Assembly (NCBI GenBank): GCA_020073665.1
Contig: JAIQEU010000002.1
Location: forward strand, 62,001-126,000
Reading direction: 5' to 3'
Length of the DNA stretch: 64,000 nucleotides
DNA from: Terriglobia bacterium
Lineage (GTDB): Bacteria; Acidobacteriota; Terriglobia; Terriglobales; Acidobacteriaceae
Shown here: positions 8,515 to 62,857 of the stretch, piece after piece
How the letters are laid out: each line of letters begins with the position of its first letter
Position numbering within the stretch: the first letter of the stretch is position 1
The notes under the pieces: model-generated
Told to the model about the DNA's origin: nothing
What the model saw: the letters and a program-made list of their open reading frames with translations, nothing else
The model's database searches: none
Position numbers and translations under genes: made by a program

Positions 8515-8727
8515 CCCGGACTCCTAGCCCTACCGACAGCGGGCCGGCAAGGGCTTCACAGAAGACTATCGTTCGACCGCCAACCGGGCAAGCCTACTTT
8601 CGCCGGGCCGCCCCCGTACCCTTTATAATTCCTCCACTCCCTGGATGCCGGCCTGCCGCACCAGGTCAGGTAGGGATAGACGAGCGGCACGGTACCAAAC
8701 ACCCGGCGCTTTCGACACCCAGCAAAC

Positions 8728-10122: not shown

Positions 10123-10136
10123 GCCAAGTCGGCGCA

Positions 10137-11072: not shown

Positions 11073-11137
11073 GCCAGAGGGTTCCCCGCCACCAAAGCGG
11101 AACGACGCCCGATCTTCCTCCGATTCTGGCTCCGCTC

Positions 11138-42536: not shown

Positions 42537-42567
42537 GATTTTTTCAGAAACTGCGCGGTACGATTAT

Positions 42568-43914: not shown

Positions 43915-43936
43915 ACCATGCCTCCTGTTGCAGATT

Positions 43937-44932: not shown

Positions 44933-45923
44933 ACACGTCCTCTCCCACTTGCTCTACGCCCGGATAGGGAGAGGCCAGGGCGAATTCAACGGCTTTCTCC
45001 ATTTCCAACTTGATCTCGGCGTGCATGCGCTCCAGCACTGCCGCATCCGCAAGGTTCTGCTCTATCAACCAGGCGCCAAAGTTCTTGATGGGATCGCGCT
45101 CCGTCTTCCACAACAGCTCTTCTTGCTTGGTGCGGTAATACTCGCGGCTGATGTCGCCGACGTGGTGCCCGGTGTAGCGATAGGTGTTGCACAGTAGGAA
45201 GGCTGGCCCCTCTCCGCGCCGCGCGCTCTCGATGAGCCGAGCGGCTACGGCATGCACCGCCCGCACATCCTGTCCGTCGACACTTTCGGCGCGGACGCCG
45301 AAGGCAGTCGCGCGCTGCAGAATGTCTCCCGCGGTGGTTTCGGTGTAATGCGTGTATTCGGTATAAAGGTTGTTCTCGCAGACGTAGATCACGGGCAGCT
45401 TGTAGAGCGCTGCCAGGTTCATGACCTCGTAGAGAACGCCTTGACCCAGGGCGCCTTCCCCAAAGAAGCAGACTGCGACTCGCTGGTTGCCGAGTCGCTG
45501 GGCGGAGAACGCAGCTCCCGTGGCGATGCCGGCGCTGCCACAAACAATCGCATTCGCACCCAGGTTGCCGGTCGCCGGATCGGCAATGTGCATGGAGCCG
45601 CCTTTGCCGCGGCAGTAGCCTGCCTCCTTGCCCAGCAATTCGGCGAACATGCGGTCGGGCGACGCCCCCTTGGCCAGGCAATGTCCATGGCCGCGATGCG
45701 TACTGGTGATGTAGTCGGTGGGCTGCAGCGCCTCGCAGACGCCGACCGCCACCGCTTCTTCTCCCACATAGAGGTGAGCCAGGCCGGGCATCAACGCGCG
45801 GGTATAGAGTTCGTTGACCTGTTCCTCGAACAGCCGAATCGCCACCATCTGCCGGTACATGCGTATCCACGACTCGGCGGCGGCAGCGGAACCGGTGTGG
45901 GTGGGATTGGCCGCGGTCGTCAT
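44925..45923 (-). CDS. 2-oxoacid dehydrogenase E1 alpha subunit
   Basis: 332 aa from the ATG at 45921-45923 (ACAGGAG upstream); a longer frame upstream is antisense-phase noise from the preceding gene. The thiamine diphosphate motif is FFGEGALGQGVLYEVMNLAALYKLPVIYVCENN (GEG...NN spacing, cited by its ends). RGHGHCLAKGASPDRMFAELLG and GKGGSMHIAD are typical of pyruvate/acetoin-type E1alpha. It decarboxylates the 2-oxoacid together with E1beta. Confidence 0.92.
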   Translation of the reverse strand: MTTAANPTHTGSAAAAESWIRMYRQMVAIRLFEEQVNELYTRALMPGLAHLYVGEEAVAVGVCEALQPTDYITSTHRGHGHCLAKGASPDRMFAELLGKEAGYCRGKGGSMHIADPATGNLGANAIVCGSAGIATGAAFSAQRLGNQRVAVCFFGEGALGQGVLYEVMNLAALYKLPVIYVCENNLYTEYTHYTETTAGDILQRATAFGVRAESVDGQDVRAVHAVAARLIESARRGEGPAFLLCNTYRYTGHHVGDISREYYRTKQEELLWKTERDPIKNFGAWLIEQNLADAAVLERMHAEIKLEMEKAVEFALASPYPGVEQVGEDVYA

Positions 45924-46813
45924 TTTGCAACTCCTGTCTTGACCCCAGACATGCGCGCCAGCACATCGAACACCACGGCAAAGTCCAGCTTCTCCCAACC
46001 CATGCCACGGGCGGCGGTCAGGAATTCGTTGCTTAAGGCGGTCGTGGGCAGGGGTACGTCGAGGGCGCGGCCCAGATCCATCGCCAGCATCAGGTCCTTC
46101 TGCATCATGTTCACATCGAACCAGGCTTCCTCCGGTTGCTGGAGAACGAAGGGTCCACGGTACTGGATCATGGGTGATGCGACCGCGCTGTGCGTAAGAA
46201 CATCCACCGCCACTTCGCGGGCGATGCCACTCTTCTCCGCCAGCAGCACGCCCTCGGAGAATGCCAGCATCTGCACCGCGAGACTCAAATTGATGGCGAT
46301 CTTCATGGACAGCGCGATGCCGTTGCCGCCCACGTACGTGACTTTTGGCCCGATGTCGCCCAGCAGCGCCTTGACCTTCTCGAAAGTTTCGGGCCGCCCG
46401 CCCACCATCACCGAAAGCTTGCCTTGCTGCAGAGTGACCACGCTGCCGGAGACGGGCGCATCCACCATGTCGCCGCCCTGGCTGCGCACCTTCTCTGCCA
46501 GCGCGCGGCTGACCTCGGGACTCACCGTACTCATGTCGATGAGGAGCTTGCCCGCGCCGAGTGCGCTCAGAATCCCGTCGGGACCCTCGGTGATCGCTTT
46601 CAGGGCCGCCGAGTTGGTGACCATGGAGAAGGTCACGTCCGACGCCGCACACACCGCGCGTGGCGAGTCAGCCCAGCGCATGCCCTTATCAATAAGCCAT
46701 TGCGCCTTGGCGCGGGTGCGGTTGTACCCGGTCACCACGTGCCCCTTCTCGAGCAACCGGGCAACCATGTTGCCGCCCATCACGCCCAGCCCGACGAAAC
46801 CCAGGTTGGCCAT
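45920..46813 (-). CDS. 3-hydroxyisobutyrate dehydrogenase-like NAD(P)-dependent oxidoreductase
   Basis: 297 aa. The N-terminal Rossmann motif is GFVGLGVMGGNMVARLLEKGH, with VDAPVSGSVVTLQQGKL and the catalytic-lysine stretch GNGIALSMKIAINLS. Family members act on 3-hydroxyacids such as 3-hydroxyisobutyrate, tartronate semialdehyde or glyoxylate. It is directly after the GntR gene (no gap) and overlaps E1alpha by 4 bp, so it feeds the same pathway: oxidation of a hydroxyacid, then of a 2-oxoacid. Confidence 0.9.
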   Translation of the reverse strand: MANLGFVGLGVMGGNMVARLLEKGHVVTGYNRTRAKAQWLIDKGMRWADSPRAVCAASDVTFSMVTNSAALKAITEGPDGILSALGAGKLLIDMSTVSPEVSRALAEKVRSQGGDMVDAPVSGSVVTLQQGKLSVMVGGRPETFEKVKALLGDIGPKVTYVGGNGIALSMKIAINLSLAVQMLAFSEGVLLAEKSGIAREVAVDVLTHSAVASPMIQYRGPFVLQQPEEAWFDVNMMQKDLMLAMDLGRALDVPLPTTALSNEFLTAARGMGWEKLDFAVVFDVLARMSGVKTGVAK

Positions 46814-47521
46814 CTATCGCACCTTTCCTGTGGGGGAGGCCTTGGAATCCTCACGCACTTGCTGCAAGTGGTCTTGCATGGCTTTACGTGCCGCTTTCGA
46901 GTCTCGACGCTCGACTGCATCGAGTATTTCCTTGTGGTGAAACTGGCCGCGCTGCGGGCCGCCTTCAACTTTGAAGATGCGCATCCTCTGCTCGCGCAAC
47001 AGCCCGACGATGGAATCGATGAGCGACAGGATAATCGGGTTGGAGGCCGCTTCCGCCAGCGAGAGATGGAAGTCGAGGTCGGCTTCGATATAGGCGTCGG
47101 GATCGTGGGAGGCGCGCTCCATTACTTCGTAGGCTTCGCGCATGGTCACCAGGTGCTGCTCTTCGATCCGCCCGGCGGCCAATGCGGCAATCTCCGGTTC
47201 AAGGATCGCGCGCACCTCGGCCAAGTGCGCCAAGCCTTCCGGCTGACTGATCCTGGCCATCAAGTCGATCGATTTTTGAATCGCCTGGGAAGTGCCATCG
47301 GTGATGAACGTGCCCCGGCCGGAGAAGGATTCCACCAGCCCTTTTTCTCCCAAGGCCTTGACCGCTTCGCGTACCGCGGTGCGACTTACACCGAAGCGCT
47401 GTGCTAGCTCGCGCTCGGCCGGGAGCTGGTCCCCCGGCTTGAGAGCACCTTTATAGATGGACTCCTCAATTTGCTGCACAATCTGCTCGTAAAGTCGGGA
47501 AGTGCGAATCGTTTTGTACAC
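46814..47521 (-). CDS. GntR-family regulator, FadR/FCD subfamily
   Basis: 235 aa, starting GTG at 47519-47521. The winged helix-turn-helix is at residues ~8-75 (QLPAERELAQRFGVSRTAVREAVKAL). The C-terminal all-helical FCD domain has the metal-ligand pattern (DLDFHLSLAEAASN and the later H in FHHKEILDAVERRD). FCD regulators respond to organic acids. It is the first gene of the operon it presumably represses, and diverges from TonB receptor 2. Confidence 0.92.
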   Translation of the reverse strand: MYKTIRTSRLYEQIVQQIEESIYKGALKPGDQLPAERELAQRFGVSRTAVREAVKALGEKGLVESFSGRGTFITDGTSQAIQKSIDLMARISQPEGLAHLAEVRAILEPEIAALAAGRIEEQHLVTMREAYEVMERASHDPDAYIEADLDFHLSLAEAASNPIILSLIDSIVGLLREQRMRIFKVEGGPQRGQFHHKEILDAVERRDSKAARKAMQDHLQQVREDSKASPTGKVR

Positions 47522-47804: not shown

Positions 47805-50800
47805 ATGGGGTCGCTGCTGAAGTCAGTTCGAGTGTGCAGTGTGGGCTTGGCCGGGTTGCTCTTGGCGTGTCTGCCGCTCGTCGCGCAAACTAACACCGGC
47901 CGCATCCTGGGCACCGTCACCGATCAAAGTGGTGGCGCCGTGAACGGCGCTACAGTGACCATCACGGACGTGCAACGAGGCACCACGCGCACCATCACTA
48001 CCGATGAGTCCGGCGCGTATGTCGCCCCCAACCTGGTTCCCAGCGTGTATAAGGTTCGCACGGAAGCCAAGGGCTTCAAGACCCTGGAGCGCCCCAACAT
48101 CCCAGTCGAGGTTGCCACCGACGTGCGCATCGACCTGGTGCTTCAGCCTGGCCAGGTCACGGAAACGGTGGTGGTTCAGGAAGACGTGCCGCTGGTCAAT
48201 ACCACGTCCTCCACCTTGGGCGGTACGCTCAGCAACAAGGAAATCAACGACCTGCCGCTGAATGGCCGCAACTATGAGAACCTGCTCCAGCTACGGCCCG
48301 GGGTCGTGCGTTACCCGGGCGGCGGATTCTCCACCACCAGCACCAATGGGCTGCGCGCCGAGGACAACTCCTACCTGATCGACGGCCTGTTCAACAGCGA
48401 ACCTTTCTCCGGCCAGAGCATCATCAATGGCGCCGGCATCGCCGGAGATTCGGCGACCATTCTGCCGGTTGACTCTATCCAGGAATTCAATGTGCAGATC
48501 AGCCCTCCCGCAGAATACGGCTGGAAGCCTGGAGCCATCGTCAACGTCGGGCTGAAGTCGGGGACCAACAGTATCCACGGGACGGCTTACGCCTTTGGCC
48601 GCGATACGCCGCTGGATGCACGCAACTACTTCAACCCGGTGTCCCAGCCCAAGAACCCCAGAAACCTGGAGCAGTTCGGCGGGACCGTGGGCGGAGCAAT
48701 CATCAAAGACAAGCTCTTCTACTTCGGTGGCTACGAAGGACAGCGTTACACGGTCGGCAACACTGGACAGATTGACACCTACGCTACCGGCTCGCTGGGC
48801 GGCGATCCGACGAACAGTCTGGTGGATGCCATTGCCGCGCTGGAAGCGGCGAAGATTCCGGTCAGCCCCGTGAGCCTGCAGGTTGGCGGCTGCACTTTGG
48901 GGCCACCGATTTCCTGCAACAGCAGTGCTTTCCCCCTCAACGACGGCACCAATCCAGCCGGCCCTACCAAAATCGATTACGGCCTATCCAACACAGTCAG
49001 CGCTGACAATGCGGTGGGCAAAGTTGACTACCACCTCAATGATCGCCACGTAATAACGGGCCGTTATTTCTACGGCAACAACTCCGGAACCGTGGCCGAC
49101 GCGAGCCAGTTGCAAGCCCAGTGGTTGACGCAGATTCACACCCGGGCGCAAGTGGCCGGGGGAAGCTGGACCTATGTTCCCAGTTCCCATTGGGTGAATG
49201 AAGTGCGCTTCGGCTACAACCGGCTTTACCAGCCGACGTTCACCTCGGATCACAACAAGCTGGCGTCGTCCTATGGCCTCGACACCGGCGTGACCAACCC
49301 CCTGTACGGTGGATTGCCACGCATCAATATTTTCCCGCTTTACATTTTCCCCCAGGAACTAGGCGGCTTTAACTGGCCGAAGGTGCAGGGCCCCGACACC
49401 CGGTTCCAGGCCGTGGATCATGTTTCGTACATCCGCGGCAATCACGCCATCAAGTTCGGCGCGGAGATCCATCATGACGGGTTCAGCGGCGGCGCCTACG
49501 GAGGCGCCCGCGGCCGAATCAAATTCATCGGTGGGGCGCTGTTCGGCGGCACCTCCTCAGGGCTGGAGGATTTCTTCGCCGGAATGCCCACCGTGGGAAG
49601 CCAACTGGTCGGCGATCCCACCCGCCATATTCACAATTGGGGGTACGCAGCCTTCGTGCAGGACGACTGGCGTGTCAACCACCGGTTCACGGTGAACCTG
49701 GGCCTGCGCTATGAGCTCAACACGGTGATTAAGGACGACAACAACCTGCTGGGCAATTTCGATCCAATCCATGGGCTGCAGCAGGTCGGAAAGGGAATCA
49801 GCTCGCCCTACAACGGAGATCACAACAACTTCGCTCCCCGCGTCGGCTTCGCCTGGGACACGTTGGGCGACGGCAAGACCGTGCTCCGCGGGGGCTTCGG
49901 CATCGTTTACGAGACGCTTAACTGGGAATCATTCCTCGCCCTGAACAATTCACTGGGCCTGAGCACGATTCCCACGGGAGCCATCATCGATGGGAGCGGC
50001 GGAACGGCCGGCGGCTCGATCGCGGTCGGCACCGTCAACTTTGATGGTTCGAACCTTAACTGGGATCCGATGATCACCGGAATTCCGGGAACCGTCTTCC
50101 CCACCACCGGCATTAATTGCTTCGCCAATCCCTGTAGCATCCTGGGAATGGACCGCAACCTCCGAACGCCATACGTTTGGAACTGGAACTTCAACCTGCA
50201 GCACGCCTTCAACAATAACCTGTCCATGGAACTGGGTTACGTCGGCAACCATGGCTCCAAGTCGGTCGGCATCCGCGACATCAATCAAAACGTGCCGGCG
50301 AATGACGTTCTAATGGACGAGCAGTCCGGCCGGCCCTTCAACGCCCAGTTTCCCTACCTGAGCTTCATCTACCAGATGGAGAACATCTACCACTCGAACT
50401 ACAACGGCTTGCAGGCGACTCTGACCGCGCGGAATTACCACGGGTTCAGCTTTGTCGCCGGGTACACTTGGTCCCATTCTCTCGACAATGTGGGCGCCAA
50501 TTGGGATTTCGGCGCTGGCTTGGGTCTGCCGACCGACAGCAACAATCCCCAAAGGGAATACGCCAGCAGCGACTTCGACATCCGGCATCGCTTCACCCTC
50601 TCGATGACTTACGCGATTCCTGGCAAAAAGTCGTTCGGGCAGGTACTGGAGGGCTGGTCGATCAACTCCATTGTCACTCTTGCCGGTGCCCAACCCTTTG
50701 GCGTGATGGATGCGGGAAGTGATATCAGCCTGACTGGCGAGGCCAACGATCGCTGGGACTTCTTCGGCAACACCAACGACTTCAAGTCGACTCCCACCGG

Positions 50801-51275
50801 CATTCCGTTCTTCCAGCCAGGGATTCCCGTCAATCCCACGGATCCGACCTTTGCAATCAACAACCCGCTTTGCGCAAACACCGCAGCGGCGAATGGGCTG
50901 ACCGCTTCCATGCTCGCCTTCGGCTGTTTTCAGAGTGGCAAGTCGGTCATGCTTCCCCCACTGGCCGGTACCTTTGGCACGATGGGCCGCAACATCTTCC
51001 GTGACACCGGCTATCGCAATGTGGATTTCTCGGTGGGCAAGAATTGGAAGTTCGGGGAACGGCTCAACGCAACCTTCCGTGCCGAGTTCTTCAATATTTT
51101 CAACCATCCCAACTTCGCCAATCCTTTCGGAGGACAAAATGGCTGGGCGCATAACGATCCTTCAACCGGTTCGTTCGGTTGTTCCTGCGCCACGCCGGAC
51201 GTGTCCGCTTCCAACCCGGTCATCGGATCGGGCGGGAGTCGTGCCGTCCAGCTGGGATTGAAACTGACCTTCTAA
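47805..51275 (+). CDS. TonB-dependent receptor, Oar-like (receptor 2)
   Basis: 1156 aa. Signal peptide ends near residue 28 (GLLLACLPLVAQ). Then a carboxypeptidase-regulatory-like domain (ILGTVTDQSGGAVNGATVTI), a plug (INDLPLNGRNYENLLQLRPG, SIQEFNVQISPPAEYGW), and a beta barrel ending RAVQLGLKLTF. It is a TonB-driven outer-membrane importer. The divergent neighbour is the GntR-controlled 2-oxoacid operon, so the two may share a substrate and the regulator. The ligand is unknown. Strong GGAGG site before the ATG. Confidence 0.92.
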   Translation: MGSLLKSVRVCSVGLAGLLLACLPLVAQTNTGRILGTVTDQSGGAVNGATVTITDVQRGTTRTITTDESGAYVAPNLVPSVYKVRTEAKGFKTLERPNIPVEVATDVRIDLVLQPGQVTETVVVQEDVPLVNTTSSTLGGTLSNKEINDLPLNGRNYENLLQLRPGVVRYPGGGFSTTSTNGLRAEDNSYLIDGLFNSEPFSGQSIINGAGIAGDSATILPVDSIQEFNVQISPPAEYGWKPGAIVNVGLKSGTNSIHGTAYAFGRDTPLDARNYFNPVSQPKNPRNLEQFGGTVGGAIIKDKLFYFGGYEGQRYTVGNTGQIDTYATGSLGGDPTNSLVDAIAALEAAKIPVSPVSLQVGGCTLGPPISCNSSAFPLNDGTNPAGPTKIDYGLSNTVSADNAVGKVDYHLNDRHVITGRYFYGNNSGTVADASQLQAQWLTQIHTRAQVAGGSWTYVPSSHWVNEVRFGYNRLYQPTFTSDHNKLASSYGLDTGVTNPLYGGLPRINIFPLYIFPQELGGFNWPKVQGPDTRFQAVDHVSYIRGNHAIKFGAEIHHDGFSGGAYGGARGRIKFIGGALFGGTSSGLEDFFAGMPTVGSQLVGDPTRHIHNWGYAAFVQDDWRVNHRFTVNLGLRYELNTVIKDDNNLLGNFDPIHGLQQVGKGISSPYNGDHNNFAPRVGFAWDTLGDGKTVLRGGFGIVYETLNWESFLALNNSLGLSTIPTGAIIDGSGGTAGGSIAVGTVNFDGSNLNWDPMITGIPGTVFPTTGINCFANPCSILGMDRNLRTPYVWNWNFNLQHAFNNNLSMELGYVGNHGSKSVGIRDINQNVPANDVLMDEQSGRPFNAQFPYLSFIYQMENIYHSNYNGLQATLTARNYHGFSFVAGYTWSHSLDNVGANWDFGAGLGLPTDSNNPQREYASSDFDIRHRFTLSMTYAIPGKKSFGQVLEGWSINSIVTLAGAQPFGVMDAGSDISLTGEANDRWDFFGNTNDFKSTPTGIPFFQPGIPVNPTDPTFAINNPLCANTAAANGLTASMLAFGCFQSGKSVMLPPLAGTFGTMGRNIFRDTGYRNVDFSVGKNWKFGERLNATFRAEFFNIFNHPNFANPFGGQNGWAHNDPSTGSFGCSCATPDVSASNPVIGSGGSRAVQLGLKLTF

Positions 51276-52752: not shown

Positions 52753-54231
52753 CTACGACACGGTGGCGGCCACTTCAAACGGATAGTGCCGCGGTTTGTG
52801 CTGCACCGAAACCCATTTCAGGGTAGTGAACTCTTCCAGCGCCCACCTGCCGTTCAACCTGCCGAAACCCGACGCTTTTTCCCCGCCAAAGGCCACCAGA
52901 GGCTCATCGTTGATGGTCCCGTCATTGACATGGACCATGCCGGAATCGATCTGCTTGGCAAGTTCGGCGCCCTGCTCCACGTTTCGCGTGTGGATGGCCC
53001 CACTTAGACCGTAGGGACTGTCGTTGGCGATGCGAATGGCCTCCTCGGTGGAGTCGAACGGGATGACGCAGACCGCCGGGCCGAACATCTCGTTGCGGGC
53101 GATCGCCATGTCGGGACCAACGTCAGCGAAGACCGTAGGCGAAACCACGTTCCCTTCGCTCTTCCCGCGCAACACCACCTTGGCTCCTTCGTCGACCGCC
53201 TTCTGAATTTGCTTGGCGAGGGTGTCAACCTGTGCCTTGTTCATCAGTGGGCCGATATCGGTGTCGGGCTGGCGTGGATCGCCTACCTTCAGGTTCGACA
53301 CGCGGCCAACGTATTTCTCCAGAAACTGCGGGTACAGGCTGCGATGTACCAGGACACGGTTCGCCGACATGCAGATCTGGCCTTGGTGGGTAAAACGGCT
53401 GAACACGGCGGCGTTGAGTGCGTAGTCGAGATCGGCGTCGGCCATGACAATCAGGGCGCTGTTGCCCCCCAGTTCCAGTACGGCCTTCTTCAGGCAGCGG
53501 CCGGCCACGCCTCCGATATGCCTGCCCACACCTTCAGAGCCGGTAAAGGAAATAATGCGCGGAATCGGATGCTCCACAAAGGCGTCGCCAATTTCGCGGA
53601 TGTCGGCCATGATCACGTTAATCAGGCCCTTTGGCATACCGGTTTCCTCGAAGACGCGCGCCACCAGCGTTCCCCCGGTGATCGGGGTATCGTCGTGCGG
53701 TTTCAGCACGACGCCGTTGCCTGCACCCAGTGCCGGGGCGACCGAACGCATGCTGAGGAAGAAGGGGAAATTGAAGGGGCTGATCACGCCAACCACTCCC
53801 ACCGGAACCCGGTACAGGCGGTTTTCCTTGCCGTCTACTGCCGAAGGAAGGATTTCGCCCGTCATGCGCAGAGGGTACGTGGAAGCTTCCTTGATGATGT
53901 TCTTGACCAGGCCGATTTCGAAGAACGCTTTTAACGCCGTTCCGCCGAGTTCTTCGATGATGATGTCGGTGATTTCCGCCTCGTGCTTCTCGACCCAGGT
54001 GATCGCCTTCTCCAGGATGGCGCGCCGTTCAAACGGATTGATTTCGGCCCAGATCTTCTGCACGGCGGCTGCGGAACGATAGGCCTCGTCCAGATCGGAG
54101 AGGTTGGCCAACTTGAAATCGGCGATTTTCTTGCCGTTGTAAGGATTCGAGTCCGTGAGCGTCTTCTGACTCGATCCGTCTCGCCATACTCCACCGATGT
54201 ATTGCTTGTTCAGCGCAGCAAATTGGTTCAT
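52753..54231 (-). CDS. Aldehyde dehydrogenase
   Basis: 492 aa. Catalytic Cys is C287 in THQGQICMSANRV and general base Glu is E253 in VLELGGNSAL. Cofactor segments VGVISPFNFPFF and SFTGSEGVGRHIG are intact. It resembles benzaldehyde/salicylaldehyde-type dehydrogenases. The start ATG at 54229-54231 has AAGGGGAG upstream. It is downstream of the fused monooxygenase (37-bp gap), so it likely oxidises an aldehyde made from that enzyme's product. Confidence 0.92.
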   Translation of the reverse strand: MNQFAALNKQYIGGVWRDGSSQKTLTDSNPYNGKKIADFKLANLSDLDEAYRSAAAVQKIWAEINPFERRAILEKAITWVEKHEAEITDIIIEELGGTALKAFFEIGLVKNIIKEASTYPLRMTGEILPSAVDGKENRLYRVPVGVVGVISPFNFPFFLSMRSVAPALGAGNGVVLKPHDDTPITGGTLVARVFEETGMPKGLINVIMADIREIGDAFVEHPIPRIISFTGSEGVGRHIGGVAGRCLKKAVLELGGNSALIVMADADLDYALNAAVFSRFTHQGQICMSANRVLVHRSLYPQFLEKYVGRVSNLKVGDPRQPDTDIGPLMNKAQVDTLAKQIQKAVDEGAKVVLRGKSEGNVVSPTVFADVGPDMAIARNEMFGPAVCVIPFDSTEEAIRIANDSPYGLSGAIHTRNVEQGAELAKQIDSGMVHVNDGTINDEPLVAFGGEKASGFGRLNGRWALEEFTTLKWVSVQHKPRHYPFEVAATVS

Positions 54232-54268: not shown

Positions 54269-55990
54269 TCAGTCTGCAATATCGGGATGATGCGTCGCAA
54301 TCCGGTAGCGGCCGGAGTGAAACACCAGTGGTTCCCCGTCGTTGTACTTGTATTCTTCTACCTCGCCGAGAAAGATGACGTGGTCGCCGCCGTCGTGCTG
54401 TTTCACTTTTCGGCAAACAAACTGTGCAATCGCGCCATTCAGGATCGGGACCCCCGCCTTGCCCTCGGCGAAGTCTACCCCAGCGAATTTGTCGGGCATG
54501 GGAGTAGAGAACTGGCGCGAAAGGTGATGCTGTTTCGACTCCAGAACATTCACCGCGAAATGAGCGCAGTTCGTGAAGTCGGCAAAGCTGGGCGCCTGGC
54601 GAGCCAGGCTCCACAGGATCAGCGGCGGATTGAGCGAAACCGAAGAGAAGGAGTTGACCGTGACTCCGATCTTGCGTCCGTCTGAGGCACGGGCCGTGAC
54701 CACCGTGACTCCGGTGGCAAACTGGCCGAGAGCGCGCCGAAAGTCGCGCCGGTCAAAGCGTTCGGCGACTGCCTTGGCTTCCTGCTGGATGAACTGGTCC
54801 GCCTCGGCCGGGTCCATGAACCACGGGAACAACGTGCGGGGATCGTCAAATCCGTTCACAAATGCACTGGCGATGGCAGGGCTTTTTCCGGCGCAATCCA
54901 GCAACCGGAGCACATGCGCGGGCGGCTTTAGCAGCAAGTTGGTCCACTCGGTCACCCATTTGGCATAGCCGGTCCAGTAACGATCAAAGGTTTGCTGCAT
55001 CCATTCGGCATCGGCGGGTCCATGACCCCGCTCCAGGATGGCCTCTAGGTAGATGTCGGCACAGCGTGCCGCATTGTTTGAGCCTTGTCCGGTTATGGGA
55101 TCGTTGAGAACCACAGCATCGGCCATACCCAGAATCGGAGACCCCGCGACCTTGGCTACAGGTTTGCGCACGGTCGGCACAACACACCCGGATAGAACGC
55201 CATTGTCGTCGGTGAGTTCGATGTTGCGGCAGCGCGCCGCTTCCCAGGGAAGAAAAGTTTCGAGCAGCTCCTGGCTGCGCGCCAGGTGCTCAGCGGGCGT
55301 GAGGTCTCCACTCCAGCAATCCATGGGGCCGCCGCGCACACCTTCGAAGACCATGATCTCGCACGGGCCGCTGGTGGTCAGAGCGGGAAAGACAAAATAT
55401 TCACCAACATTCGGGATCAGGTTGAAGCAGACCGCGGAGTACGGGACGCGAGGCTGCATCCCGGTCACGTAGGTCAAGGCAAGCGTGCGTTGGGCCTGCG
55501 AAAACGGCGAGCGGTCGGGATCGCGCTCGAACAGCTGACCAAGCGCGCCTTTTCCACTGGCGACGATGACTAAGTCATGCGTGCGAGCGTAGGCCGCGAG
55601 GTCGTCTGGACTGGCTGCCTTGATGTGGAGCTCGCCGCCTCGACTCTGGAATTGGGCGAGCCAGCGCGGGATCTTCAGCCGCTGATCGACCGATTGCGCG
55701 AAGTTGTCCAACCGGGCAGACCAATCGATCGACGCGCCTCCGATTCCATCCGGAACCGCGAAGGAGATTCCCTCAACTTGGGGACACTGCTTTTCCCAAT
55801 AATCCAGGTTGAGGTCGTGCTCGATCTCGAGGGCCGAGTCGAACATGCACTGGCTCGACATGACGTGGCCTTTGAGGATTTCATCGGCGGAACGGTCGGA
55901 GAAGAGGCTTACTTCGTAGCCCGCGCCCAGCAGTCCATGCGCCAGTTGTAAGCCCGACTGACCGGCTCCGACAATCGCGATGCGTTTCAC
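54269..55990 (-). CDS. styA2B: Fused styrene/indole monooxygenase and flavin reductase (StyA2B type)
   Basis: 573 aa, start GTG at 55988-55990. Residues 1-~405 are a StyA-like FAD monooxygenase: FAD-binding GAGQSG (8-13), GHVMSSQCMFD (41-51), and the second FAD motif DPITGQGSNNA (297-307). Residues ~412-573 are a StyB/HpaC-like flavin reductase (FRRALGQFATGVTVVTA, VNSFSSVSLNPPLILWSL, GDHVIFLGEVEEY). The oxygenase inserts one O atom into styrene- or indole-like substrates using reduced FAD supplied by the C-terminal domain. This fusion type is known from Rhodococcus StyA2B, which works with a separate StyA1. A StyA1-like gene lies 1 kb away, divergent. Confidence 0.92.
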   Translation of the reverse strand: MKRIAIVGAGQSGLQLAHGLLGAGYEVSLFSDRSADEILKGHVMSSQCMFDSALEIEHDLNLDYWEKQCPQVEGISFAVPDGIGGASIDWSARLDNFAQSVDQRLKIPRWLAQFQSRGGELHIKAASPDDLAAYARTHDLVIVASGKGALGQLFERDPDRSPFSQAQRTLALTYVTGMQPRVPYSAVCFNLIPNVGEYFVFPALTTSGPCEIMVFEGVRGGPMDCWSGDLTPAEHLARSQELLETFLPWEAARCRNIELTDDNGVLSGCVVPTVRKPVAKVAGSPILGMADAVVLNDPITGQGSNNAARCADIYLEAILERGHGPADAEWMQQTFDRYWTGYAKWVTEWTNLLLKPPAHVLRLLDCAGKSPAIASAFVNGFDDPRTLFPWFMDPAEADQFIQQEAKAVAERFDRRDFRRALGQFATGVTVVTARASDGRKIGVTVNSFSSVSLNPPLILWSLARQAPSFADFTNCAHFAVNVLESKQHHLSRQFSTPMPDKFAGVDFAEGKAGVPILNGAIAQFVCRKVKQHDGGDHVIFLGEVEEYKYNDGEPLVFHSGRYRIATHHPDIAD

Positions 55991-56008
55991 GAGGTTCGGC
56001 CCTTTTAC

Positions 56009-56797
56009 CTATTCCATCAGCTTTGGAATCGCGGGGGCAGCCATCTCCGGCCCCATGGCAGAATAGCCGCCGTCTACCGCCAGGTCAGTTCCGGTGATGA
56101 AGGAGGCATGGCTGGAGCAGAGGAAGAGCACACCCTGGGCGACTTCTTCGGGTTCGCCTACGCGGCCAAGCAGGTGAAACGGGCCGCCCACACGGTTGGT
56201 TTTTGCCTTGTCGCCGTGAGTCAGTTCGTCCATCACCCGCGACCAGGTCCAGCCCGGGGAAATCGAATTGACCCGAATCTTGTCGCCAGCCAGGTCCATG
56301 GCTTCGTTGCGGGTGAGTTGCAGGGTCGCTGCTTTGGTTACGGGATACAGCCAGCGCCCGGTCTGCGCAACTTTCGCGCTGATGCTGCCGAAATTTACCA
56401 CCGCGCCGCCGCCCCGCTTCATCATGTGGGGACGCACGGCCTTGAGCAGCATCACGCCGCCCACCACATTGACGTTGTAGCTGTCGAGCCAGTCTTTGCG
56501 TGAGGCATTCAGGGCGTCATCGATGTAGACGCAGGCCAGGTTGACCAGAAAATCGATTCCGCCGAAGGCAGCCACCGTGCGCTCGACGCAATTCGCAATT
56601 TGGGAGTCATCGGCGAGATCGGTGTGCACGAAAAGCGCGTCTTTGCCGAGAGCGCTGGCCACCCCTTGCCCATCTTTATCGTTGATGTCGGCGATCACCA
56701 CCTTGGTGCCTGCGCGCTGAAATGCTTGCGCCACAGCGGCCCCGATCTTGGTGGCACCACCGGTTACGATGGCGACTTTGCCCTGCAATCCCTCCAT
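56009..56797 (-). CDS. Short-chain dehydrogenase/reductase
   Basis: 262 aa from the ATG at 56795-56797 (GGAGACG upstream); the longer frame to 56899 is not supported. Cofactor motif VTGGATKIGAAV has Lys where TGxxxGIG usually has Gly. NLACVYID stands at the usual NNAG site. The catalytic Ser is in FGSISAK and YxxxK in LYPVTKAA. The C-terminal GTDLAVDGGYS is classical. It precedes the fused monooxygenase by 18 bp in the same operon and may oxidise a diol or hydroxylated product, as SDRs do in indole and aromatic pathways. Confidence 0.88.
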   Translation of the reverse strand: MEGLQGKVAIVTGGATKIGAAVAQAFQRAGTKVVIADINDKDGQGVASALGKDALFVHTDLADDSQIANCVERTVAAFGGIDFLVNLACVYIDDALNASRKDWLDSYNVNVVGGVMLLKAVRPHMMKRGGGAVVNFGSISAKVAQTGRWLYPVTKAATLQLTRNEAMDLAGDKIRVNSISPGWTWSRVMDELTHGDKAKTNRVGGPFHLLGRVGEPEEVAQGVLFLCSSHASFITGTDLAVDGGYSAMGPEMAAPAIPKLME

Positions 56798-56979
56798 GCT
56801 CGTCTCCGGACTTCTTGGTCTTTTGAGCGGGAAGCCTATCACGAGGTCGGATGCCGGGCAAGATGGGCGTGCTGTTTGGAGGTATTCTCTCCTCAGCATT
56901 TGGCGAAGCTTGACACAGTCGATTATAGTTTGGCACTCAGAGGTTGAATGCAGTACATCGCGTACCTGGAGAAAATCGG

Positions 56980-58212
56980 ATGAGGAAAATTGCCATCGTG
57001 GGTGGCGGGCAGTCGGGCTTGCAACTGGCGTTAGGACTCCTGCAGAAAAACTACGAAGTCACGGTCGTTAGTAACCGCACGCCGGAGCAGATCTTCAACG
57101 GCCGGGTCACCTCCAGCCAGTTTATGTTCCATGATTCTCTCCAGAACGAACGCGACCTGGGGATCAACTTTTGGGAAAAGGACTGTCCCATCACCGAGGG
57201 CATTGCCTTCACGATTCCCGGACCCGACAAGACCAAGGCCCTGTTCTGGGATTCCAGACTCGACAAGTATGGCCAGTCGTTAGACCAGCGGGTCAAGTTT
57301 TCCGGGTGGCTCAAAGAGTTTGCCAAGCGCGGCGGAAACCTGGTGATCAAAGACGCCGGGCCGCAAGACGTCGACGAGTACAGCAAGAACTATGACCTGG
57401 TCATCGTGGCCGCAGGCAAGGGCGAGGTCAACCGCATGTTCGAGAGGGACGCGGAAAAGTCTCCCTTCGACAAGCCGATGCGAGCCCTGGCACTGACCTA
57501 TGTGAAGGGCATGGCCCCACGCCAGCCGTTCACCGCAGTTTCTTTCAATCTGGTCCCGGGAGTTGGGGAGTACTTCGTTTTCCCCGCACTCACTACCACC
57601 GGGCCATGCGAGATCATGGTGTTCGAGGGGGTTCCGGGCGGCCCCATGGACTGCTGGAACGAGGTCAAGACCCCGCAACAACACTTGGAGAAGAGTAAGT
57701 GGGTGCTGGATACGTTCATGCCACTCGAGGGAGAACGCTGCCGCAATGTCGCACTGACCGATGACAACGGCATCCTGGCAGGGCGGTTTGCGCCGACCGT
57801 GCGCAAGCCGGTCTGCAAATTGTCAGGCGGCCGTTTCGCCCTAGGGATGGCCGACGTGGTGGCCACCAACGACCCCATCACCGGCCAGGGATCGAACACC
57901 GCCAGCAAGGCGGCCAGCATCTATTTGAAGCGAATCCTGGAGCGCGGCAACCAACCCTTCGACGCCCAGTGGATGCAGCAGACCTTCGACATCTTCTGGA
58001 ACTATGCGCAGTGGGTAGTCCGGTGGACCAACTCGCTGCTGGTGCCGCCGGAACCGCAAATTTTGCAACTGATGGGTGCTGCCAGCCAGATTCCGCGGTT
58101 AGCAAGCAAGATCAGCAACGGGTTCAACAATCCACCGGATTATTCTCCCTGGTGGTTTGATCCCGCCGAAGCCGACAAGATAATTCAGCAACTGGCGGGT
58201 GCTGCAGCCTAG
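56980..58212 (+). CDS. styA1: Stand-alone styrene/indole monooxygenase oxygenase (StyA1 type)
   Basis: 410 aa from the ATG at 56980 (GGAGA upstream). It is a full-length StyA-like flavoprotein monooxygenase: IVGGGQSGLQLALGLL at the N-terminus, GRVTSSQFMFHDSLQNERDLG, LALTYVKGMAPRQPF, and NDPITGQGSNTASKAA. It is clearly homologous to the oxygenase half of the fused gene, with long shared stretches such as VGEYFVFPALTT. It has no reductase domain, so it needs reduced FAD from the StyA2B partner, as proposed for the Rhodococcus StyA1/StyA2B pair. It diverges from the SDR-StyA2B-ALDH operon with 182 bp between starts. Confidence 0.92.
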   Translation: MRKIAIVGGGQSGLQLALGLLQKNYEVTVVSNRTPEQIFNGRVTSSQFMFHDSLQNERDLGINFWEKDCPITEGIAFTIPGPDKTKALFWDSRLDKYGQSLDQRVKFSGWLKEFAKRGGNLVIKDAGPQDVDEYSKNYDLVIVAAGKGEVNRMFERDAEKSPFDKPMRALALTYVKGMAPRQPFTAVSFNLVPGVGEYFVFPALTTTGPCEIMVFEGVPGGPMDCWNEVKTPQQHLEKSKWVLDTFMPLEGERCRNVALTDDNGILAGRFAPTVRKPVCKLSGGRFALGMADVVATNDPITGQGSNTASKAASIYLKRILERGNQPFDAQWMQQTFDIFWNYAQWVVRWTNSLLVPPEPQILQLMGAASQIPRLASKISNGFNNPPDYSPWWFDPAEADKIIQQLAGAAA

Positions 58213-58617
58213 GCGGCGGGCGGCGGCAACTTGCTTTTGGCGACCGCGCTGCGACTAGTTTCAAGGTGTCTGGATTGCGTTGTTGCCCGGTGTCTCTGCC
58301 CACCAAACGATCCCGCAAAAACTCTAGCCGGCTTTCTGCGAGATGGGCCTTGACAATCGCTTGGGCTCGTTGTTGAATTGGCCACACTATTGCATATCTC
58401 TCGTCGCCAATGTGGGGCCACGAGATTTTGGGTATCGTCCGTTACGAAACTGAGTTCACAACTGATCGTCGCCGACTCCCCGTGATCGGGGCATTCGGCT
58501 AGGACCGTCCTCCCGCACGGGGAAGGATCTCTGTTCAATCGTTGGTTTGTTGAACTTTTCAACACAGGAAATTTGGACCATGAAGGCAAGTGCCGGTCTC
58601 ACAGAAAAGGGGATCCC
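58213..58617. other. 405-bp non-coding region before TonB receptor 3
   Basis: No convincing gene. It contains a small CCCCG-TGAT-CGGGG hairpin (58478-58491) and a perfect inverted repeat TGTTGAA-CTT-TTCAACA (58548-58564), 53 bp before the receptor start, which could be an operator. A minus-strand frame of ~126 codons here is low in protein-like composition and has no recognisable domain. Confidence 0.5.
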
Positions 58618-61600
58618 ATGAAGCGGACTTCGTCTTGGGCAGTGGGCGCTGCAGTTCTGTTTCTGTTGTGGTCGTCGAACGCGCTGGGCCAGGAACTGGC
58701 CACGTTAAAGGTGACGGTGAATGACCAAACCGGCGCCGTGATTCCAGGCGCATCCGTTACCCTGCGAAACACCCAGACTGGCGCCAGGCGCAGCGACGTT
58801 TCCGAATCTCACGGTTTGTCGGTGATTCCCGGCGTTCCCGCCGGCGGCTACGAACTCACGGTCGAGGCCAAGGGGTTCACCTCCCGCAAGCTCCCGGTGT
58901 CCCTGTCGGTGGGCCAGACCGCTTCAGTGGTGGTCACCTTGGGCGTCACCATTACCCAGGAAGTACAGGTGCAAGACGTCGTCCAGGGTATCGACACCGA
59001 AAAATCAGATATCAGCCAGGTTATTGACACACCCAAGATCAACGACCTGCCGGTTTCTGGCCGCGACTTCATCGACTTCGTCTTACTCACGCCCTCGGTG
59101 AACGTGGGCAGAAGCACGGCCGTCGGAGCACAATCGCCGTTCACAGAGACGGTCCTCAAGCTCAGTTTCGCCGGTGTCCGTGAAAGCCACACCTCATTTT
59201 TCGCACTGGACGGAATCGACTACACCACCAGCATCTCCGGAGTGCAACGCATCAGCCCCTCACAAGACTGGGTGCAGGAATTCCGCGTGGTAGACAGCGC
59301 GTATACGGCAGACACGGGGCGCAACCTAGGGTCTGTGGTAAACACGGTCACCAAGTCAGGGACCAATGATGTGCACGGCTCGGTCTACGAATTCTTTCGC
59401 AACAACAACCTGGACGCCAACAACCTGCTCTCGGCGCCGGGCTTCAATACCCTGCGTTTCAACCAATTCGGGGGGACGGTAGGCGGTCCTATCCGCAAGG
59501 AAAAGAACTTCTACTTCCTCGGTTACGAGGGGCAGAGGCGAGCCGAGTCGCCTATCTATTCGTCCCTCATCCTGCACTGCACCGACACGCCGGGCTGCTT
59601 CGGCCCGGGGAGTCCCAGCATTAACCAAGTGAAGCAAGACCTCGGTTTGCAGCCCGAGAGTCTGAATTCAATCCTGACCATTGATGATTACGACAAGTTC
59701 ATTGGCAAGACCAATAACATCCTGACTGACAAGACTTTTCTCAACATCACCTATCTGTTCAACGATTCGCGCAAGAAAAACGCACGCGGCGCGGCGCCAG
59801 GCGAAGGACTGCCTTCCTCCTATCGCGACAACCCGGTGCGCGACCAGACCTTGTACAGCAACCTGATTCACGTGTTCAACCACGATCTGACGTCCGAAAC
59901 CCTGCTGCAGTATGGCAGACGCAGCTTTGAACTGAACCCCAAGGGACTGGGATTCGAGCCGGCCTTGGGTATTCCTGACCTGTTGTCGTCGGGTGGTTTT
60001 GTGGGCAGCGTCCGGTTTTACCAGGAGCAACACTTCCAGTTCGGCGAGAATCTTACCTACACGCGCGGCAACCACGCGCTGAAGTTCGGCGGCGAGGTCC
60101 AGCCCATCTGGACTACTACGCAGGTCCCGCTGTTCAGCCCGGGGTTCGCGATCTTCGCTCCACAGACTTTCTTTTTGCCACCGCCCAACGACGGCACTCC
60201 GGTTGCGTTCTTGTTCCTGGAGCCGCGTTCGTTATTCGGTACTCAGATTCCCAACCGCGACCCCAACTTCGAGGCTGGCCTGTACGCCGGGCCCAGCGAA
60301 CAAACCTTCAACGACGCTACCACCGTGGACTACCGCCACACTTTATGGTCGCTGTATGCGCAGGACCAGTGGAAGGCCCGGCCCAATCTGACTTTCACGC
60401 TGGGTCTTCGTTATGACGTAGACAAGCTGCCCCCGGGATCCGAACTGAAGCAGATCGGCGGGTTCCATCCCACCCAGTACGGGAATGTCCAGCCGCGCGC
60501 CGGTTTCGCGTATGCCTTCAATGGAGGCAGAGGTGTACTGCGCGGTGGTTTTGGCCTGTTTACCGGGCCATTCGTCTACAGCGATATCCTGGTCAGTTGG
60601 GTCGGCGCCTCGGAATTCACTCCCTTTACCCAACCCTTTCTGCCTGAGTTCTCCAATCCCAGCCAGAACTTGATCGGGTTCGGTCCGTCCGGCGCTGTCG
60701 GTGATGCTCCAATTTCGTTGAGGTCGGATTTCATCAACTTCGTCACCACCGGCGCGTACCCACCGCCAACCCAACTCGCGCAAGTTCCTCTGGGTTACGC
60801 AAAGAAGGACTTTCCCCTGCCTTTTTCGGAGCAAGGTAACCTTGAACTGGAACATCAAATCGGCAAAGACTTCTTTGTGTCGTTGGGATATCAGTGGTTG
60901 CATGCCTCGCGGTTGCCGGTGTATTCGAGCATCAATGGCGCGCCGCAGCCGGGGTGCGATCCGCTGGTCACCAGCGGTTGCAAACAGTTCTTTGCGCCCT
61001 TGCCGGAGCCTTTCGGTTTCGTCTTATATGTCAAGCCGATTGGCTTTTCGATTTACAATGCGGGCACGCTGAGTGTGCGCAAGGCCTTCTCGCACAATTT
61101 CAGCTTACTGGCGAACTACACCTACGCCAAGTCCATCGACATCGCCACCACCGTGAACCTGCCGAACACGCCAGAGAACTATCTGCATCCGGAATATGAC
61201 CGGGCGGTTGGCGACAACGACGTTCGTCACCGCTTCACGCTGGCGTTCCAGGCGGAATCGCCAAAGGAATGGCCGCGCCTGCTGCGTGACTTCAAGTTTT
61301 CCACCCTCACCAGCCTGCAAAGCGCTCGCTACTTCAGCATCAACTCGGGATTTGATACCAACGGTGACCTGTTCCCATTCCCCGACCGCGTGGGTACCAG
61401 TTCCCGCAACATTTACAAGGGCGATCCGTACTATGACGTGGATGTACGCCTGCAGCGAGATATTCCTTTCACTGAGCGTATCAAGGGAGAGGCCAGCGTT
61501 GAGGCCTTCAACCTGTTCAACCGGCCCAATGTGGAAGATGTGGACCACGTGTACGGCGCCCCGGACTTTATCGGGGCCGTGCCGAAGCAGTTCGGCGACC

Positions 61601-61692
61601 ATATTTCGAGTCCCGGCAACCCCACCTTCGGCTCGCCTAAATTCGCATCTCCGGCGCGCCAACTGCAGCTTTCGTTCCGGGTCACCTTCTAG
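58618..61692 (+). CDS. TonB-dependent receptor, Oar-like (receptor 3)
   Basis: 1024 aa from the ATG at 58618 (AAGGGGA upstream); the upstream in-frame start at 58573 would add a charged tail before the signal peptide. The signal peptide (WAVGAAVLFLLWSSNALGQ) is followed by a carboxypeptidase-regulatory-like domain (LKVTVNDQTGAVIPGASVTL), a plug (INDLPVSGRDFIDFVLLTPS, then TADTGRNLGSVVNTVTKSG) and a beta barrel ending LQLSFRVTF. It sits between the StyA1 gene and the nitrilase-fold gene, all on the plus strand, so it may import the aromatic substrate. The ligand is unknown. Confidence 0.92.
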   Translation: MKRTSSWAVGAAVLFLLWSSNALGQELATLKVTVNDQTGAVIPGASVTLRNTQTGARRSDVSESHGLSVIPGVPAGGYELTVEAKGFTSRKLPVSLSVGQTASVVVTLGVTITQEVQVQDVVQGIDTEKSDISQVIDTPKINDLPVSGRDFIDFVLLTPSVNVGRSTAVGAQSPFTETVLKLSFAGVRESHTSFFALDGIDYTTSISGVQRISPSQDWVQEFRVVDSAYTADTGRNLGSVVNTVTKSGTNDVHGSVYEFFRNNNLDANNLLSAPGFNTLRFNQFGGTVGGPIRKEKNFYFLGYEGQRRAESPIYSSLILHCTDTPGCFGPGSPSINQVKQDLGLQPESLNSILTIDDYDKFIGKTNNILTDKTFLNITYLFNDSRKKNARGAAPGEGLPSSYRDNPVRDQTLYSNLIHVFNHDLTSETLLQYGRRSFELNPKGLGFEPALGIPDLLSSGGFVGSVRFYQEQHFQFGENLTYTRGNHALKFGGEVQPIWTTTQVPLFSPGFAIFAPQTFFLPPPNDGTPVAFLFLEPRSLFGTQIPNRDPNFEAGLYAGPSEQTFNDATTVDYRHTLWSLYAQDQWKARPNLTFTLGLRYDVDKLPPGSELKQIGGFHPTQYGNVQPRAGFAYAFNGGRGVLRGGFGLFTGPFVYSDILVSWVGASEFTPFTQPFLPEFSNPSQNLIGFGPSGAVGDAPISLRSDFINFVTTGAYPPPTQLAQVPLGYAKKDFPLPFSEQGNLELEHQIGKDFFVSLGYQWLHASRLPVYSSINGAPQPGCDPLVTSGCKQFFAPLPEPFGFVLYVKPIGFSIYNAGTLSVRKAFSHNFSLLANYTYAKSIDIATTVNLPNTPENYLHPEYDRAVGDNDVRHRFTLAFQAESPKEWPRLLRDFKFSTLTSLQSARYFSINSGFDTNGDLFPFPDRVGTSSRNIYKGDPYYDVDVRLQRDIPFTERIKGEASVEAFNLFNRPNVEDVDHVYGAPDFIGAVPKQFGDHISSPGNPTFGSPKFASPARQLQLSFRVTF

Positions 61693-61789: not shown

Positions 61790-62857
61790 ATGGTGAAACC
61801 TTATACCGCCGTTGGCCTCATCCCCGCCGTACGCGGTATTCGCCGCCGCAAAGACATTAAGATCAACCTGGAACACTTGAAACACCTGGTGAAAGCTGCC
61901 AGCTGGCTGTCGGCACTCGACATCCCGGTGCGCTTGATCGCCCTTCCCGAAGGAGCTTTGCAGGCCTTCAACGATGAAGTGCTGGACCTGGACCACGTCA
62001 AGTTCGCACGCGAGTGCGCCATCGACATCCCCGGCGAAGAAACCGACGAACTGGGCAAGATTGCGGTCGAGTACAACGCTTTCATCATCGCCCAGGCAAA
62101 AGCGCGCCACCCTGATGTCAAAGACCGTTTCTTCAATGTCGGTTTCATCCTCAACCCGAAAGGCAAAGTAATCCTCAAGCACTACAAGGTCTCGCCCCTG
62201 TTCCCGGTGGAGCACTCCGTCTGCCCCCACGACATTTACGATTGGTGGATCGAAAAGTACGGGCGCAACCTGGATGCCTTCTGGCCGGTGGTGGATACCG
62301 AGATTGGCCGCCTCGGCATCATGATGGCGAATGAAGGCTCATATCCGGAGAACGCCCGGGCCCTGGCGCTGAATGGCGCCGAGGTGGTCTATCGCGCCTC
62401 TTATCCGCACCCCGCGACCGGCAATGAGATTTTCGAAATTCAAAGCCGGGCGCGCGCGCTCGACAACAACATGTACATCGTCGCCCCCAACCTGGGGACG
62501 TATTACCTGTTTCCCGAAGAGACCACCCCTATCGATACCTTCGGCGGACGTTCTTTCATCATCAATTACAAGGGGCAAATCGTGGGGCGGCAGGAGTACG
62601 GAGGCGGGTCAACCTACGTGGCGGGAGTGATCGACATTGAGGCCCTGCGCGATCACCGCGCGCGGGCGCAATGGGACAACTGGTTGAAAGACTTGCGCAC
62701 CGAACTGTACCAGATACTCTACGAACAGCCCATCTATCCCAAGAATCTTTACCTTAAGCGCGAACCGATGAAACACGCGGAATACCGGAAGAAGGTCATC
62801 CAGCGGCAGATCCGGCTGATGCACGATCGCGGCATCTGGAAGAAGCCGGAGCGCTGA
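61790..62857 (+). CDS. Nitrilase-fold protein lacking the catalytic cysteine
   Basis: 355 aa, carbon-nitrogen hydrolase superfamily. The catalytic Glu (IALPEGALQAF) and Lys (VILKHYKVSPLF) positions are kept. The nucleophile site reads RLGIMMANEGSYPENAR, where amidases of this fold have ICDDGNYPE; the Cys is therefore Ala. Other fold features are intact (NMYIVAPNLGTYYL, GRSFIINYKGQIVG). Without the Cys, nitrilase or amidase chemistry is not expected, so it may be a binding or regulatory protein or use another residue. It is 97 bp after TonB receptor 3 on the same strand, with a hairpin between. Confidence 0.8.
   Translation: MVKPYTAVGLIPAVRGIRRRKDIKINLEHLKHLVKAASWLSALDIPVRLIALPEGALQAFNDEVLDLDHVKFARECAIDIPGEETDELGKIAVEYNAFIIAQAKARHPDVKDRFFNVGFILNPKGKVILKHYKVSPLFPVEHSVCPHDIYDWWIEKYGRNLDAFWPVVDTEIGRLGIMMANEGSYPENARALALNGAEVVYRASYPHPATGNEIFEIQSRARALDNNMYIVAPNLGTYYLFPEETTPIDTFGGRSFIINYKGQIVGRQEYGGGSTYVAGVIDIEALRDHRARAQWDNWLKDLRTELYQILYEQPIYPKNLYLKREPMKHAEYRKKVIQRQIRLMHDRGIWKKPER

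Follow-up and report, generated by a model that had tools for sequence, protein, structure and literature searches.

The window analyzed here, a stretch of 64,000 nucleotides on contig JAIQEU010000002.1 of a Terriglobia bacterium from the phylum Acidobacteriota (assembly GCA_020073665.1), carries a gene cluster built around two StyA-type flavin monooxygenases. On the minus strand, an intact open reading frame (ORF) at 54269..55990 encodes a StyA2B-type fusion of 573 amino acids, in which an oxygenase domain (approximately residues 1-403; A2) precedes an NADH (reduced nicotinamide adenine dinucleotide):flavin reductase domain (approximately residues 410-571). Pfam places Smoa_sbd at residues 146-253 (E 2e-41) and Flavin_Reduct at residues 422-564 (E 7.2e-39). 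The separate oxygenase, StyA1 (A1), lies on the plus strand in an intact ORF that runs from 56944 to 58212, with a start at about 56980 by homology, and also contains Smoa_sbd (E 1.7e-43). The ORF translations of both oxygenases have a GxGxxG-type N-terminus, the Rossmann motif for binding flavin adenine dinucleotide (FAD). The reductase part of the fusion has its best solved match in the p-hydroxyphenylacetate hydroxylase reductase 5zc2 (140.6 bits), and it scores 191.0 bits with the NCBIfam model of that reductase vs 113.2 bits with StyB, both below the cut-off.

The minus-strand group also contains a short-chain dehydrogenase (SDR) at 56009..56797 and an aldehyde dehydrogenase (ALDH) at 52753..54231. 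The SDR is part of a longer ORF reaching 56899, with its start put at about 56797 by homology, and is assigned to adh_short_C2 by Pfam and to NF006121 by NCBIfam (410.8 bits against a cut-off of 294); the ALDH is an intact ORF with Pfam Aldedh. On the plus strand, StyA1 is followed by a TonB-type outer-membrane receptor at 58573..61692 (CarboxypepD_reg, OMP_b-brl_4 and TonB_dep_Rec_b-barrel), presumably Oar-like, and by a CN_hydrolase-fold protein (Pfam) at 61790..62857 in which Ala occupies the place of the catalytic Cys. The two groups are separated by 182 bp (56798..56979), in which short conserved blocks are visible in the alignment of 7 of the 9 acidobacterial loci described below and one sigma-70-like site is found on the plus strand; as these signals weakly suggest, the promoters of both groups are presumably housed here.

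A first-pass annotation had described a StyA-reductase fusion and a separate StyA-type oxygenase in divergent operons with an SDR and an ALDH, and had compared the pair to the two-part StyA1/StyA2B of Rhodococcus. The fusion and the separate oxygenase are confirmed by the intact ORFs and Pfam domains, and the operons hold as divergent gene groups, known here from gene orientation alone. The SDR and ALDH are both present, but the ALDH lies just outside the interval then assigned to the cluster, which spans the oxygenases and the SDR. The comparison with Rhodococcus is borne out for the architecture and was incomplete on gene order, which is divergent here and co-directional (SDR-A1-A2B) in Variovorax and most actinobacterial fused loci.

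Indole-type features and the altered pocket of A1

According to PMC13101512, indole monooxygenases (IMOs) have the fingerprint S46-Q48-M50-V/I73-I76-A96 and styrene monooxygenases (SMOs) the fingerprint N46-V48-H50-Y73-H76-S96. When these six positions were read from one alignment, VLB120 StyA gave NVHYHS, A2 SQMVIA and A1 SQMTIG. All six IMO residues are present in A2 and four of six in A1, which departs with Thr73 and Gly96, while neither oxygenase matches any of the six SMO residues. A1 and A2 are 57.8% and 55.9% identical to the oxygenase of an Acinetobacter locus (L062), and 28.7% and 28.8% identical to VLB120 StyA. The closest chain in the PDB is 7z4x for both proteins (600.2 bits for A1 and 625.7 for the fusion), and the StyA chain 3ihm reaches 140.2 and 122.3 bits, respectively. 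We take 7z4x to be the structure of VpIndA1; its PDB record says only 'putative dehydrogenase/oxygenase subunit'. With the NCBIfam StyA model, which has a cut-off of 550, the window oxygenases reach just 198.8 and 227.2, and the ALDH scores 336.8 with the StyD model against a cut-off of 800. With each of the 25 NCBIfam models shown out of 45, among them StyD, the ALDH stays below the cut-off. The gene order of L062, dienelactone hydrolase (DLH)-SDR-oxygenase-reductase, is that of iifABCD (PMC4577076), and its DLH and AraC labels were checked by family.

A scan of genome contigs yielded 400 relatives, and the best 80 loci were kept. In trees that contain a single true SMO, both oxygenases group with the indole monooxygenases; a position away from the StyA and indole monooxygenases, which the first-pass annotation had named as a refutation, was not observed. 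Together, the sequence comparisons give good support for both oxygenases being of the indole type (IMO branch) rather than the styrene type. The first-pass annotation had considered indole or another aromatic alkene the likelier substrate, of which the indole reading agrees with the fingerprint, identity and PDB scores, and had seen no StyC-type isomerase; no match to VLB120 StyC was found in the window's own genome either, in a search without a positive control. The two oxygenases it had paired are not equivalent, A2 carrying the full indole fingerprint and A1 being off at two positions.

The A1 proteins of the acidobacterial loci form one clade (8 rows, 100/100; 10 rows, SH-aLRT 100). The residues of these 10 rows were compared, in StyA numbering, to 131 others drawn from the 80 loci and the window, with StyA and two distant proteins of group E (L004 and L016 at 9783) excluded. 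At position 96, all 131 others have Ala, and the acidobacterial A1 proteins have Gly (9 of 10) or Phe (1 of 10). At position 310 all ten have Thr, against Asn (129), Ser (1) or Leu (1) in the others. Nine of the ten carry Phe49, which is never seen among the 131, and nine carry Thr73, where all others have Val or Ile. The exception within the clade is L016, an Acidipila metagenome-assembled genome (MAG), with Ala49, Val73, Ile86 and Phe96 in place of Gly. The window A1 carries Phe49, Thr73, Gly96 and Thr310 and retains Ser46, Gln48, Met50 and Ile76. In L016, the fusion is directly followed, at 9783-11132, by yet another oxygenase of group E, the third at this locus, which is remote (about 35%) and reads GAVGVG at the fingerprint positions.

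Among four remoter plasmid proteins, position 96 is Ala in Kitasatospora and Deinococcus, Ser in Embleya and Gly in Acinetobacter, and none of the four has Thr310. The Acinetobacter plasmid oxygenase, which is SkaMO-like by its neighbours, shares Gly96 with most acidobacterial A1 proteins. It comes from a plasmid cluster (L113) in which a 38% group-E oxygenase is accompanied by a flavin reductase, an SDR, parts of a ring-hydroxylating oxygenase and an acetamidase/formamidase, and which has a skatole-type look. PMC13101512 describes strains in which specificity is divided between an IMO and a SkaMO. The window A1 differs from the SkaMOs in that it belongs to the IMO branch (about 58% to an IMO) with four of six fingerprint residues, whereas SkaMOs are reported to be fingerprint-less. 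The residue changes in A1 may alter its substrate, and, as a guess, StyA1 could handle a bulkier or 3-substituted indole and A2 indole.

Distribution and origin of the fusion

The fusion occurs as a single ORF in 57 of the best 80 of the 400 relatives: 25 from Variovorax, 26 actinobacterial and 6 acidobacterial. Because these 57 carry both domains in one ORF, the fusion is not a chance product, and neither is the divergent cluster layout, which is met again in further MAGs of acidobacteria. Eight acidobacterial database loci were recognized by title (L008-L012, L016, L039 and L049), giving nine with the window; acidobacterial MAGs supply the closest homologues of the fusion. The fusion is intact in six of these eight; the L039 copy is cut by the contig end, and the L049 copy is broken into two overlapping ORFs (7998-9663), through sequencing error or decay. 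An SDR and a divergent A1 are present in 8/8 (the A1 of L012 is partial at the contig end). The co-directional order SDR-A1-A2B is found in all 25 Variovorax loci (with the SDR of L015 cut) and in 23 of the 26 actinobacterial fused loci, and a separate reductase is found in the loci of Pseudomonas, Acinetobacter and Burkholderiales other than Variovorax.

In a 2018 paper, based on a database search of September 2017, styA2B-like genes were found only in Actinobacteria and Variovorax (PMC6017014). The Acidobacteriota widen this range, and the fusion itself is not new in kind. On Acidobacteria with StyA2B or indole, nothing on point was found in the open-licence literature, which does not imply absence in print. 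Smoa_sbd was detected in only 3 of 396 sampled genomes of the phylum: the window genome (G000, two copies), G148 (one copy with an SDR, no fusion seen) and G286, whose copy is a 34% relative. Within the phylum the cluster is therefore rare, and it may be an acquisition.

The fused oxygenase domains fall into separate acidobacterial, Variovorax and actinobacterial clades, both in a tree of 74 of 143 rows, thinned and without L016, and in a tree of 77 rows. The acidobacterial A2 clade adjoins Variovorax A1 and not Variovorax A2 (97/90; SH-aLRT 88), and the actinobacterial fused domains form their own clade of 13 rows (98/90). In the reductase tree (47 of 81 rows, L016 left out, several long branches flagged), the acidobacterial and Variovorax fused domains are joined (90/85). 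In the approximately unbiased (AU) test, a single clade of all fused oxygenases was not rejected (p 0.207), and a clade of acidobacterial and Variovorax fused oxygenases was borderline (p 0.041).

Among the known systems, VpStyA1/VpStyA2B of Variovorax paradoxus (E2-type, IMO branch) resembles the window cluster in having an oxygenase, a fusion and an adjoining IifB-like SDR, and the window fusion is 64-68% identical to that of the 25 Variovorax loci. In Variovorax the genes are co-directional and A1 has Ala96, whereas in the window they are divergent and the A1 pocket is changed; in addition, an IifA-like DLH is nearby in 22 of the 25 Variovorax loci (the other three are short), whereas none was seen at the window cluster. 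StyA1/StyA2B of Rhodococcus opacus and its actinobacterial homologues share the two-part architecture; R. opacus 1CP is outside the 80 loci and was compared from papers. An isatin-hydrolase-type cyclase is present in 16 of 17 Arthrobacter-group loci and was not found in the eight acidobacterial database loci. The iif, ind and dho-ipo clusters of Acinetobacter, Pseudomonas and Cupriavidus have an IMO, an IifB-like SDR and a flavin reductase in common with the window, where, unlike in these clusters, the reductase is fused, a second oxygenase is present and IifA and IifR were not found (IifR searched at the loci only). In place of the MetA-like IifE described for iif (PMC4577076), the window has a TonB-type receptor.

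Neighbouring genes and the Cys-less CN-hydrolase protein

Neighbourhoods were viewed up to 8 kb on each side, with L012 ending inside A1 and L039 inside the fusion. Within the nine acidobacterial loci, the receptor family occurs in seven (not seen in L012 and L016), the Cys-less CN_hydrolase protein in seven (window, L008-L011, L039 and L049), a Cys-bearing CN_hydrolase paralogue in three (L009, L012 and L016), the nitrilase family 'Nit5' in four (L009, L011, L012 and L016) and the ALDH in four (window, L008, L011 and L016). With just 4/9, the ALDH is weakened as a core member; in L008 it is split over two ORFs (9688-11223), by sequencing error or decay. The window SDR is 54% identical to that of L062, where the genes stand in iif order, and it counts as IifB-like on the grounds of similarity and synteny. 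On another contig of the window's own genome, a Cys-bearing paralogue, Nit5 and an isochorismatase-type hydrolase are located side by side.

On the ALDH side, a second outer-membrane receptor (CarboxypepD_reg/OMP_b-brl_4) is located upstream at 47805-51275, without a counterpart among the other acidobacterial loci. Beyond it, one minus-strand cluster at 41361-47521 contains 2-oxoacid dehydrogenase complex E2 and E1 components, an M24 peptidase-family protein, a 3-hydroxyisobutyrate-dehydrogenase-like protein and a GntR/FCD regulator (E1 beta was checked by Pfam/NCBIfam, and the other dehydrogenase components were read by eye). The 2-oxoacid dehydrogenase cluster (about 41.4-46.8 kb) was rejected as part of the pathway, having no family in common with the acidobacterial loci within the reach of their contigs.

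Genes for ring opening and regulation were searched in the 80 loci with Pseudomonas, Variovorax and Arthrobacter queries (E 1e-15), and the families of the queries were checked. An IifA-like DLH was found in 33 loci, an isatin-hydrolase-type cyclase in 19 and an AraC-type regulator in 66; IifA belongs to the dienelactone hydrolase family (PMC4577076). In the window's own genome, DLH gave a single 31% match over half of the query. Two cyclase-family proteins score above the Pfam cut-off, the better one, on another contig, being 35% identical to the Arthrobacter cyclase; such a protein could serve the pathway, although nothing seen links it. Two ring-hydroxylating dioxygenase alpha subunits were also found by search.

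In nitrilase superfamily formamidases and aliphatic amidases, which share the CN_hydrolase domain with the window protein, the catalytic triad is Glu-Lys-Cys. The window protein keeps Glu and Lys but, like its close kin, has Ala in place of the Cys: the alignment gives GIMMANEGSYPE vs VICMEGSFPE in Cys-bearing relatives. Its closest solved chains are a formamidase (55 bits) and an aliphatic amidase. The close kin that likewise lack Cys come from the acidobacterial loci L008, L009 (398), L010, L011, L039 and L049, and further from G148 (84%), Tsukamurella (62%) and Acinetobacter L062 (59%). Cys-less kin are also found on haloarchaeal plasmids (L103 8992-10098, 56%; L104 8992-10083, 52%). Eleven remoter copies from the phylum (36-45% identity) have Ala in three cases (L098-L100) and Cys in eight, and so the loss of Cys is not confined to the close-kin group. 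On a nitrilase-fold subfamily without Cys, the open-licence literature gave nothing on point; absence in print is not implied.

Besides the IMO loci themselves, several settings link this protein to indole. In Acinetobacter L062, a homologue lies near an iif-ordered cluster. The Tsukamurella homologue adjoins an isatin-hydrolase-type cyclase that is 59% identical to the Arthrobacter cyclase, and in G148 a TrpB-like enzyme (NF009057, 721.2 bits against a cut-off of 366) is encoded directly upstream. Of the 396 phylum genomes, two (G000 and G148) have copies of at least 80% identity, and both carry an IMO; given G000, the probability that the second carrier would be one of the two remaining genomes with Smoa_sbd is about 2 in 395, uncorrected for relatedness. 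The Tsukamurella plasmid (L102) has an SDR, a flavin monooxygenase (FMO)-like protein, an indolepyruvate-oxidoreductase-like pair, the isatin-hydrolase-type cyclase and the Cys-less CN hydrolase, together with genes annotated as salicylyl-CoA 5-hydroxylase and AMP-binding, and no Smoa_sbd oxygenase in the 19 kb seen. It looks like another indole/anthranilate cluster. The idea that the CN hydrolase simply substitutes for IifA or isatin hydrolase is weakened because its kin co-occur with an IifA-like DLH (Acinetobacter L062) and with a cyclase (Tsukamurella L102), and because its catalytic Cys is missing and its own genome has a cyclase-family protein elsewhere.

Proposed route and alternatives

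The cluster is likely an acidobacterial island of the indole-type (Group E) two-component FAD monooxygenases, involved in the oxidation of indole or substituted indoles. The roles of the reductase and oxygenases, the substrate class and the SDR step are carried over from characterized relatives. In this scheme, the reductase domain of the fusion would reduce FAD with NADH, and the reduced FAD would serve the oxygenase domain of the fusion itself and, reaching it through diffusion or transfer, StyA1. The oxygenases would epoxidize indole, or one of its derivatives, at the C2-C3 bond, and the IifB-like SDR would convert the epoxide or diol to a 3-hydroxyindolin-2-one-type lactam, so that the product is not lost to indigo. 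Import of the substrate or its precursor is probably the task of the outer-membrane receptor. RoStyA1/A2B and VpStyA1/A2B offer a precedent for the division of labour, in which the fusion reduces FAD with NADH and both proteins act as oxygenases (PMC6017014). The conversion of indole to the dihydrodiol by IifC/D and further to 3-hydroxyindolin-2-one by IifB has also been described (PMC6221969, PMC12538310). Downstream steps would be carried out by CN_hydrolase, nitrilase and isochorismatase family members, and one may guess that the CN-hydrolase-fold proteins, the nitrilase, the isochorismatase-type hydrolase and the ALDH complete the ring opening towards anthranilate. N-formylanthranilate has been proposed as an intermediate in a cyclase-containing cluster (PMC9871250), a step that the formamidase-like Cys-bearing paralogue might conceivably fit.

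Several points weigh against this indole scheme. A1 deviates from the published IMO fingerprint at 73 and 96, and the trees rest on one true SMO. VpStyA1/A2B also oxidizes styrene and sulfides (PMC6017014), and the natural substrate is therefore not fixed by the enzyme class. An IifA-like DLH, an isatin-hydrolase-type cyclase and an AraC regulator each occur in 0/8 acidobacterial database loci within contig reach, and a complete route to anthranilate is therefore not shown. The Tsukamurella enzyme annotated as salicylyl-CoA 5-hydroxylase had no match in the window's own genome, in a search without a positive control, and the two haloarchaeal surroundings viewed had no indole-like neighbours.

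A system for the epoxidation of styrene or another aryl alkene, in which the SDR and ALDH turn the epoxide into the aryl acetate, would agree with the ALDH adjoining the fusion and with the styrene epoxidation by E2-type enzymes in PMC6017014. It is very improbable: a styrene pathway was rejected on the missing SMO fingerprint of both oxygenases, their identity of about 29% to StyA and scores far under the family cut-offs for StyA and, for the ALDH, under that for StyD; moreover, StyC was not found (without a positive control), and only 4/9 acidobacterial loci have the ALDH. Also unlikely, though less so, is that indole is only detoxified or turned into pigment, with export of a less toxic product and no growth on indole. 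IifC detoxifies indole to indigo (PMC4577076), and a ring-opening gene of the IifA-like or cyclase type was not found in the acidobacterial loci, nor a close one in the genome. On the other side, the conserved linkage to the outer-membrane receptor, and in several acidobacterial loci to amidase, nitrilase or isochorismatase-type hydrolases and ALDH, suggests uptake and further breakdown.

The alternative with the most weight, though still doubtful, is that both oxygenases act on plain indole, the A1 substitutions having no effect and the second copy being redundant, as may be the case in Variovorax, where VpStyA1 and VpStyA2B each yield indigo (PMC6017014). The window A1 does keep the four residues Ser46, Gln48, Met50 and Ile76, and three of the changes are lacking in L016, which is a member of this A1 clade as well. 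However, Ala96 is universal in the other 131 proteins and absent from the acidobacterial ten, Thr310 shows the reverse pattern, and such changes would not be expected to persist under unselected drift. A different and rather speculative extension of the indole scheme, thought unlikely, is a third way of breaking down the indole ring, in which a StyA1 re-specialized at 49, 73, 96 and 310 is combined with lactam opening by CN-hydrolase-fold proteins, one of them Cys-less with other chemistry or a non-catalytic role, and not by IifA or isatin hydrolase.

The features that go beyond earlier expectation are the A1 pocket clade, the divergent cluster with a receptor and a Cys-less hydrolase, and the failure to find IifA, the cyclase and AraC at these loci; the A1 pocket and the Cys-less partner are the most testable new points. 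The self-supplying StyA2B design is now extended to the Acidobacteriota, a large soil phylum. The natural A1/A2 pair, in which one enzyme keeps the residues from which indole specificity is predicted and the other departs from them, offers a direct test of the fingerprint. The Cys-less subfamily of the nitrilase fold also has kin outside the phylum, in other bacteria and in haloarchaea, and its ties to several indole settings give a lead on its function.

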